From: Candidatus Nitrosopumilus sp.
GTDB lineage: Archaea > Thermoproteota > Nitrososphaeria > Nitrososphaerales > Nitrosopumilaceae
NCBI GenBank assembly: GCA_003331425.1
Contig: QOOS01000008.1
Span: forward strand, 1-55,817
Direction: 5' to 3'
Length of the DNA: 55,817 bases
Positions 2,230 to 3,278 of this stretch are shown piece after piece. A model generated the notes under the pieces. That model did not search any database and was not told where the DNA came from. It saw only the letters and a list, made by a program, of their open reading frames with translations. The stretch's first letter is position 1. Every line of letters begins with the position of its first letter. Position numbers and translations under genes: made by a program.

Positions 2230-2793
2230 TCAAATAGTATTTAATTTTCCAGTATGTGTTTTAAAATATTCTTGAAGTGCCACATTAGAACGAACATCTT
2301 TGTAAGAATCTAACATTGTATCCATAATTCGATTAATGTGATTTTGTAATCGTTTAATTCGTTGTTGTGCTATTGGATGTTGTAAAAGTCTAATTTTATC
2401 AAAATGATCAATTTTTGAAATCACTATTGTTATCCTATTGATTTCTTCTTGAATATGTTCAAGTAATTTCAATCCATCCTTACTAAAACCAAATCTCCCA
2501 CCATCACTCAACATTATTGTTGGGATCTTTTTGATCAGTTCAATTTCAAATTTTTGATATTCTAAGAAATTATCCATCATTAACGAAAATTGATCATGAC
2601 TTTGAGGCCTGTCTTGTTTTTTATAGAATAAATTATTTTTTAAAGTTCTAGATTCAAGAAATCCCATATAGGCAAGTCTTTGAATTGATTCAACTACTTC
2701 AGATTCATTACCACCACATCTTTCAACAATGTCTTTTAGTTCAATCCACTGAGAAGTACAAAATAAAATGTAATCATCATGAATCGTTACCAT
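2230..2793 (-). CDS. winged-helix domain protein, paralogue of the gene at 47798
   Basis: A 187-residue protein. Residues about 1-60 look like a winged-helix DNA-binding domain; the rest is helical with a basic stretch LQHPIAQQRIKRLQNHINRI. The whole length aligns by eye with the 183-residue protein at 47798-48349: shared start (IHDDYIL / IYDDRIL), shared QS.dQF centre, and shared Kl..H......R..R tail. It therefore belongs to a small two-member family in this genome. Likely a cytoplasmic transcription regulator; the target is unknown. ATG start. Confidence 0.6.
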   Translation of the reverse strand: MVTIHDDYILFCTSQWIELKDIVERCGGNESEVVESIQRLAYMGFLESRTLKNNLFYKKQDRPQSHDQFSLMMDNFLEYQKFEIELIKKIPTIMLSDGGRFGFSKDGLKLLEHIQEEINRITIVISKIDHFDKIRLLQHPIAQQRIKRLQNHINRIMDTMLDSYKDVRSNVALQEYFKTHTGKLNTI

Positions 2794-2874
2794 TGTACTA
2801 ACATGGATTGTATGGGATTTCTAATATGTTTAGGTAAAAGATTTGCATGAACTTTTCACATAAGAAATTAAATG

Positions 2875-2967
2875 GCGAAGCCCACTTAATTGCAGAACAT
2901 TAAGAGATTTCCTCTTGTGGTCAAGCGTTAAACGCCTGAGTGCCTTTTTCGTTCTGCGGGGCTACGC
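2875..2967 (-). ncRNA. candidate structured RNA (multi-branched, about 95 nt core)
   Basis: The gap between 2793 and 3279 contains a GC-richer island that folds strongly. Outer stem: 2875-2883 with 2958-2967 (GCGAAGCCC/GGGCTACGC, one mismatch). Inner closing stem: 2892-2898 with 2951-2957 (GCAGAAC/GTTCTGC, perfect). Two hairpins sit inside: 2902-2906/2912-2916 (AAGAG/CTCTT) and 2921-2927/2933-2939. The last hairpin is fully paired only if the minus strand is transcribed (G-U instead of A-C), and a TTATAATAA box occurs upstream on that strand near 3005-3015. Not a tRNA, 5S, SRP or RNase P RNA that I can recognise. Strand is inferred. Confidence 0.45.
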
Positions 2968-3278
2968 ACTTTATTCATTAGTTTTTGTAACTAACGACAT
3001 CATTTATTATAAGACATTCAAATATTTAACATTATCATATAATTATTTCAATTAATTATTGAATTTATTATAATTCTTAAAGTAAATATTATAAAAATAT
3101 GAAGAAAAGCATATTTTGATCGTAGAATATCAATGAATGTTAATTGGTTAGATAGGGGAATATGTTGAATACCTTTCATTCTAATTTCAGATGATTAAAA
3201 CGGTTTGACATCTGAAATGGATTGCTGATACCAATTAGCATTACAAACTTTATTGTGTGTAATTATTCATCAGAAAAC
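2968..3278. other. AT-rich intergenic stretch
   Basis: About 310 bases with no supported gene. It includes the putative promoter of the minus-strand RNA (TTATAATAA near 3005-3015 on the minus strand), a small inverted repeat TTAGTT..AACTAA at about 2978-2994, and otherwise very AT-rich sequence leading to the zinc-ribbon gene. A TTG-started extension of the following frame begins at 3222, but its translation before the ATG at 3279 does not look like protein. Confidence 0.4.

Follow-up and report, generated by a model that had tools for sequence, protein, structure and literature searches.

The minus strand of the window (the whole 55,817-nt stretch of DNA that was analysed) almost certainly encodes a small structured RNA, ∼136 nt in length. 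The gene occurs across the family Nitrosopumilaceae, its fold is preserved through compensatory base changes, and it begins with a very short open reading frame (ORF) of 8–9 codons located downstream of a TATA box. The preservation of this micro-ORF suggests that the ribosome itself may help to control the RNA. The features of the window copy are listed in Table 1.

Table 1. Coordinates in the window of the RNA gene, its promoter and its structural elements
Feature	Position	Strand	Observation
TATA box TTAAATA	3023..3029	-	its first T precedes the ATG by 29 nt
Whole RNA gene, ∼136 nt	2865..3000	-	covariance-model match at 2865-3002
Predicted leaderless micro-ORF, ATG TCG TTA GTT ACA AAA ACT AAT GAA TAA (MSLVTKTNE, then stop)	2971..3000	-	comparison of copies
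Hairpin 1, built from the codons of the micro-ORF	2974..2998	-	double-sided changes in 6/8 pairs
P1 5′ strand (closing stem)	2958..2967	-	begins 3 nt past the stop codon; double-sided changes in 5/10 pairs; 96.8% paired
P2 5′ strand GCAGAAC	2951..2957	-	double-sided changes in 6/7 pairs; 97.3% paired
Conserved single-stranded junction GAAAAAGGCAC	2940..2950	-	largely conserved in alignment A1
P3 hairpin, loop variable with indels of 1–2 nt	2921..2939	-	double-sided changes in 5/5 counted pairs (alignment)
P4 hairpin AAGAG-GAAAU-CUCUU, sequence highly conserved	2902..2916	-	98.9% paired
P2 3′ strand GUUCUGC	2892..2898	-	fold and covariation
P1 3′ strand GUGGGCUUCGC, one bulged U	2875..2885	-	covariation and covariance-model match
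U-rich 3′ end, probable termination site	2864..2873	-	T-rich past P1 in nearly all Nitrosopumilus copies

Two covariance models were built, R1 from 25 copies of the RNA and R2 from 54 more diverse copies, and both match the window copy (R1, E = 5e-34 with the whole genome searched; R2, E = 1e-30 with the window searched). A first-pass annotation of this DNA had placed a multi-branched RNA element here, in a gap without an ORF, and the domain that it described was recovered. Only small mechanical ORFs lie in the gap, and both closing stems sit exactly at the positions given for them, with P1 pairing 2958–2967 and 2875–2883 (GCGUAGCCC/GGGCUUCGC, one U-U mismatch) and the perfect 7 bp P2 pairing 2951–2957 and 2892–2898 (GCAGAAC/GUUCUGC). 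The two enclosed hairpins are P3 and P4, and the proposed minus-strand direction is correct, with the promoter, the covariance model and the ORF in agreement. The extent, however, was incomplete, as the gene reaches ∼3000 and includes an additional 5′ hairpin and micro-ORF, with the TATA box at 3023–3029. The earlier reading was also made without the second gene copy described below, and without evidence to tell an independent gene from a 5′ UTR element. When the region 2865–2980 was folded, the minus strand gave a minimum free energy of −36.1 kcal/mol (z −3.85; 1/200 shuffles as good) and the plus strand a z of −2.92. Coding potential was rejected for the three-way-junction domain formed by P1–P4, which is considered non-coding because the indels in P3 are 1–2 nt in length.

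Comparison of copies supports the same structure. RNAalifold predicted this fold from the alignment alone, with no structure supplied. In alignment A1, 94.5% of cells are paired compared with 36–46% in slid controls, and the corresponding values for alignment A2 (53 distinct rows) are 92.8% and 37–47%. Moreover, double-sided changes are seen in 24 of the 35 pairs of A2 (8–10 in slid controls) and its covariation score is 0.300 (0.048–0.079 in controls), with none of the measures reached by any shuffle. A2 was fitted to the covariance model, so its counts lean towards that model; A1 was not fitted. Compensatory changes in P1 and P2, which had been proposed as the check on the element, are present in both stems in A1 and in A2.

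R1 matches 155 of the 167 Nitrosopumilaceae genomes, representing 17 of 20 genera and usually with two copies each, and R2 adds two genomes of the family that R1 missed. Outside the Nitrosopumilaceae, R1 gave no match in the families of the class that were sampled, nor did R2 in 22 genomes of other families. BLASTN with the element covered 61 related genomes and detected it in 32, which belong to a single genus and mostly have two copies. Carriers identified by name include Nitrosopumilus salaria BD31, Nitrosarchaeum sp. BD3, Ca. Nitrosomarinus and Ca. Nitrosomaritimum. The first-pass annotation had made its reading depend on conservation in related genomes, and relatives were indeed found by both BLASTN and R1; its suggestion of a new lineage-specific RNA is strengthened by the occurrence throughout the Nitrosopumilaceae, the lack of matches in the other families searched, the lack of an Rfam family and the compensatory changes. 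Its placing of the DNA in Nitrosopumilus was correct as well. Together, these data support an RNA that is family-wide in, and lineage-specific to, the Nitrosopumilaceae. A viral origin was considered for 7 IMG/VR contigs that matched a loose pattern and was rejected, as neither R1 nor R2 matches those contigs. Phage and plasmid searches gave no match to the RNA.

By synteny, the RNA loci form two clusters with different surroundings. At locus B the RNA lies between a divergent short-chain dehydrogenase (SDR) gene and a convergent gene, the 3′ end of which abuts the RNA, and a Snf7/CdvB-like gene is nearby (Pfam E 3e-5, narrowly short of the cut-off). The convergent neighbour (L032:4298–4747, minus strand) encodes a conserved small putative secreted protein with no Pfam match, and is convergent with the locus B RNA in nearly all genomes compared. 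Locus B is probably ancestral, because it is present in most genera. Locus A, to which the window copy belongs, adjoins a PurP-like gene (DUF1246/DUF1297) that is convergent in other genomes; among the genomes compared, only that of the window has a 187-aa ORF with no Pfam match (2230–2793, minus strand) between the RNA and PurP. Downstream of the RNA, no gene in the same orientation is conserved, and the neighbour on that side is convergent at both loci. Because the neighbours are convergent or differ, the RNA is an independent gene rather than the leader of a neighbour, and the gene order points with high confidence to an independent transcript. Assignment to a riboswitch or cis leader class was rejected in the absence of a conserved place upstream of a co-directional gene.

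The second copy in the genome of the window is located on another contig (G000:C1:213166–213303, plus strand; L032:4167–4304) and is 88% identical by BLASTN. Its micro-ORF encodes MSKVVISID and differs from that of the window copy, while the inner domain is almost identical. In the clade of the window, where there are two copies per genome, identity is 0.91–1.00 for the inner domain (identical in G006) and 0.50–0.70 for the ORFs. This pattern looks like partial gene conversion, which suggests that both copies may share a partner and differ in their 5′ inputs.

In the copies, 136 of ∼143 matches to the exact TTAAATA motif lie 29 nt before the ATG position. Few protein genes have this exact motif, and in 5/7 of them the spacing is 27–29 nt, which is a leaderless spacing. 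We infer that transcription of the RNA starts at the AUG or a few bases from it, so that the RNA would be leaderless. At the other end of the gene, the U-rich stretch 2864–2873 is the probable termination site. Weakly conserved AT-rich blocks are found ∼10–50 nt upstream of the TATA box at both loci (examples at locus A are TTACAATA and TTgaAATAATT), as is a CTATAnTAA-like element between the TATA box and the ATG. These are possibly regulatory or proximal promoter elements.

Known classes of RNA were compared with the gene. The first-pass annotation had regarded an Rfam hit as telling against a new RNA; no match at gathering score was found in the window (Rfam 15), and relaxing the threshold to E 5 at the locus yielded none either. 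Its statement that no tRNA, SRP or RNase P signature fits agrees with the ARAGORN search, which found neither tRNA nor tmRNA, and with the location elsewhere of the archaeal SRP RNA (RF01857; C1:280783–281094) and RNase P RNA (RF00373; C9:164769–165048) of this genome, both of which were rejected as identities for the element. SRP RNA is normally present once per genome. Unlike the tag ORF of tmRNA, the ORF here is 5′ terminal and has its own start codon. H/ACA guide RNAs have an ANA box close to the 3′ end of a hairpin that contains a guide pocket, and reading of the alignments excluded this class, there being no conserved ANA box and a single multi-branched domain; the conserved 3′ end is ACGCC, followed by runs of U or A. 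The C and D boxes of C/D guide RNAs are RUGAUGA and CUGA, respectively, and this class was also rejected on the alignments, where UGAUG...CUGA occurs in some copies only and UAAUG...CUAA is commoner; a C/D-type kink-turn at UGAUG...CUGA is likewise not kept across copies. Anti-Shine-Dalgarno pairing of AAAAAGGUGAUCA is suggestive in a few copies and was rejected, the element being mostly CAAT and not TGAT. Complementarity of the RNA to 16S or 23S rRNA was no better than shuffled. No description of a comparable ncRNA of Nitrosopumilus or Thaumarchaeota was found in the literature searched, although subscription journals lay outside this search and an earlier report is possible.

An ORF of 8–9 codons is present in 150/150 distinct copies, some of which carry an extra ATG in front (in the window copy a further in-frame ATG is at 3003). 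A script called 147 of the 150 ORFs, and the other 3 failed the stem pattern only. ATG, 8 sense codons and a stop are found in 140 copies (TAA in 90, TAG in 42 and TGA in 8), copies without ATG have an in-frame GTG or TTG instead, and the distance from stop to P1 is 3–4 nt in 142/147 copies. Parsimony on a tree built from the RNA part gives 20 changes among stop codons, all stop-to-stop and none to a sense codon, a count that can be inflated by partial gene conversion between copies. If changes were free, no more than roughly a third to a half of them would be expected to keep a stop; by this rough estimate the chance of 20/20 stops being kept does not exceed about one in a million. Moreover, 69/69 distinct ORFs are intact compared with a mean of 58.7 and a maximum of 67 in 2000 column shuffles, a control that leaves relatedness in and whose 140 copies are the ones already intact in the standard register. 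The copies were gathered with models that include the 5′ part. In addition, 15 remote R2 copies keep the ORF (L228, L231 and L232 by eye). In L232 the 5′ sequence is unrelated and the ORF is kept (GTG...TAA, VIVESLQMA), with a TATA box 28 nt off and a stop-to-P1 distance of 4 nt.

The peptide sequence is conserved loosely at best. Changes at the three codon positions of the ORF number 106/131/86, so that third positions are not the fastest and purifying selection on the peptide is not supported. K3-D4 recurs in the peptides of remote copies (MRKDANSGD, MQKDAKSTA, MRKDVNPNK, MHKDISSEA), with AAA or AAG and GAT or GAC used as alternative codons, and the peptide of locus A copies reads MSLV... 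Because the peptide is poorly conserved, a functional peptide is not supported, and the case for translation is that of start and stop conservation alone. From this conservation it is likely that the micro-ORF is translated.

The same 30 nt serve as both ORF and hairpin 1. Indeed, each of the 84 distinct ORFs folds more stably than its codon-shuffled versions do on average (−6.7 compared with −2.2 kcal/mol). The remote copies L228, L234 and L235 have a weak hairpin 1 (−1.5 to −3.7) but retain the ORF. The ORF seems to be the more basic constraint, because it persists where hairpin 1 is weak.

In bacterial leader-peptide attenuators (such as tnaC and ermBL) a very short ORF is translated and a downstream gene is controlled in cis. 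The RNA described here is attenuator-like in that its short ORF is placed where a ribosome could control the neighbouring stem, but unlike attenuators it has no conserved downstream gene. The closest known system is sRNA154 of Methanosarcina mazei, a nitrogen-regulating sRNA with a conserved leaderless 20-aa sORF (nt 4–66) that is proposed to be dual-function (PMC11456600). Both are archaeal sRNAs with a small ORF in the 5′ part, leaderless in sRNA154 and predicted to be so here; as judged from synteny, promoter and 3′ end, the present RNA would likewise be a stand-alone small RNA gene, and its 5′ ORF is conserved. However, it belongs to another lineage, no sequence relation is claimed, and its ORF has 8–9 codons, lies inside a hairpin, ends 3–4 nt before the three-way-junction domain and encodes a peptide that is not conserved. 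In Haloferax volcanii, sRNAs with ribosome occupancy have been described, several of them without detectable protein (PMC12482152). Those sRNAs were defined by Ribo-seq, whereas the present RNA is known from genomes alone, and the two with the highest occupancy, SHOxi and sRNA_61, lack a stop codon (PMC12482152), which the present RNA always contains. Thalassoarchaea ncRNA 1 (Tan1), from Euryarchaeota, is a structured lineage-specific marine archaeal ncRNA of 229 nt, with no micro-ORF mentioned in the description consulted (PMC5069720); its lineage and length differ from those of the present RNA.

The reading favoured here, tentatively and with slightly less than even confidence, is that the sRNA acts in trans and carries a leaderless micro-ORF that is translated, with the ribosome gating the fold via hairpin 1 and P1. 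An RNA of ∼136 nt would be made from its own TATA promoter, starting at or near the AUG and therefore leaderless, and a ribosome would read the 8–9 codons and terminate 3–4 nt before P1. Given the known size of ribosome footprints, a stop this close to P1 would place the base of that stem under the ribosome during termination. The effector would be the three-way-junction domain P1–P4, with its highly conserved P2, GAAAAAGG junction and P4, acting in trans, most likely via a protein or RNA partner. The ribosome would be the input: translating or terminating, it would open hairpin 1 and cover the 5′ base of P1, such that the folding of the effector, its stability or its accessibility to a partner would track the translational state of the cell. 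Within this hypothesis, action in trans is probable, while gating by the ribosome is plausible but more speculative. A trans-acting, micro-ORF-controlled RNA is favoured because of the sRNA154 and Haloferax precedents and the anatomy of the RNA. It is rather doubtful, but conceivable, that the RNA is a stand-alone translation-state sensor, in which a ribosome on the nine-codon ORF, and not a metabolite or peptide, would switch a trans-acting RNA with no downstream gene.

The presence of the ORF in all copies, the recurrence of K3-D4 with alternative codons in remote copies and the sRNA154 precedent (PMC11456600) would also fit a dual-function RNA, combining a functional micropeptide (∼M-x-K-D-x-x-S/P-x-D) with a separate regulatory structured part, as proposed for M. 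mazei sRNA154. This is unlikely, however, as locus A peptides begin MSLV, change is not fastest at third codon positions, 8–9 residues are very short and the codons are constrained by hairpin 1. Alternatively, the leaderless AUG might recruit ribosomes on which the junction domain then acts, as a decoy or in hibernation or translation regulation, with the early stop merely keeping ribosomes off the fold. The leaderless ORF, the stop fixed beside P1 and the ribosome-occupied H. volcanii sRNAs without detected protein (PMC12482152) are consistent with such docking, which nevertheless appears improbable when complementarity to 16S/23S rRNA is not above shuffled.

Hairpin 1 is itself conserved and many of its columns vary little, as would be expected if the RNA were a plain structured sRNA or RNP scaffold and the ATG–stop pair an untranslated by-product of conserved bases around hairpin 1 (initiator, loop-flanking motifs). 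The 20 interchanges of TAA, TAG and TGA with no sense codon, the replacement of a lost ATG by GTG or TTG, and the frame kept in remote copies whose hairpin 1 is weak or of unrelated sequence all argue against this view and make it quite improbable. It is extremely unlikely that the RNA acts in cis on the 187-aa gene at 2230–2793, as a riboswitch or attenuator in its 5′ UTR. That gene lies ∼70 nt downstream on the same strand in the window genome, but the other genomes compared lack it at this place, the RNA is followed by a convergent gene at both loci, and the RNA has its own promoter and U-rich 3′ end.

Marine ammonia-oxidising archaea belong mainly to the Nitrosopumilaceae, a family that ranks among the most abundant archaeal groups in the ocean and drives ammonia oxidation. 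No regulatory RNA of the family is described in the literature searched. Being family-wide, usually two-copy, driven by a TATA promoter and covarying in its fold, the RNA is an obvious candidate for a core regulator or RNP, and its conserved, predicted leaderless nine-codon ORF leads one to expect a ribosome footprint at the 5′ end. If the trans-acting, ribosome-gated reading is true, a translation-coupled class would be added to archaeal sRNAs. The covariance model also provides the means to annotate a gene that Rfam-based annotation has missed in nearly every genome of the family. Two contigs that carry the RNA with thaumarchaeal neighbours and are labelled Hyphomicrobiales and Chitinophagaceae (L179 and L184) look like misbinned MAG contigs. 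Copies L228, L234 and L235, from genus g34, form a divergent paralogue class without the GAGAGGAAAUCUCUC hairpin, in which P1 and the micro-ORF are retained and the peptide begins M-[RQ]-K-D-A.
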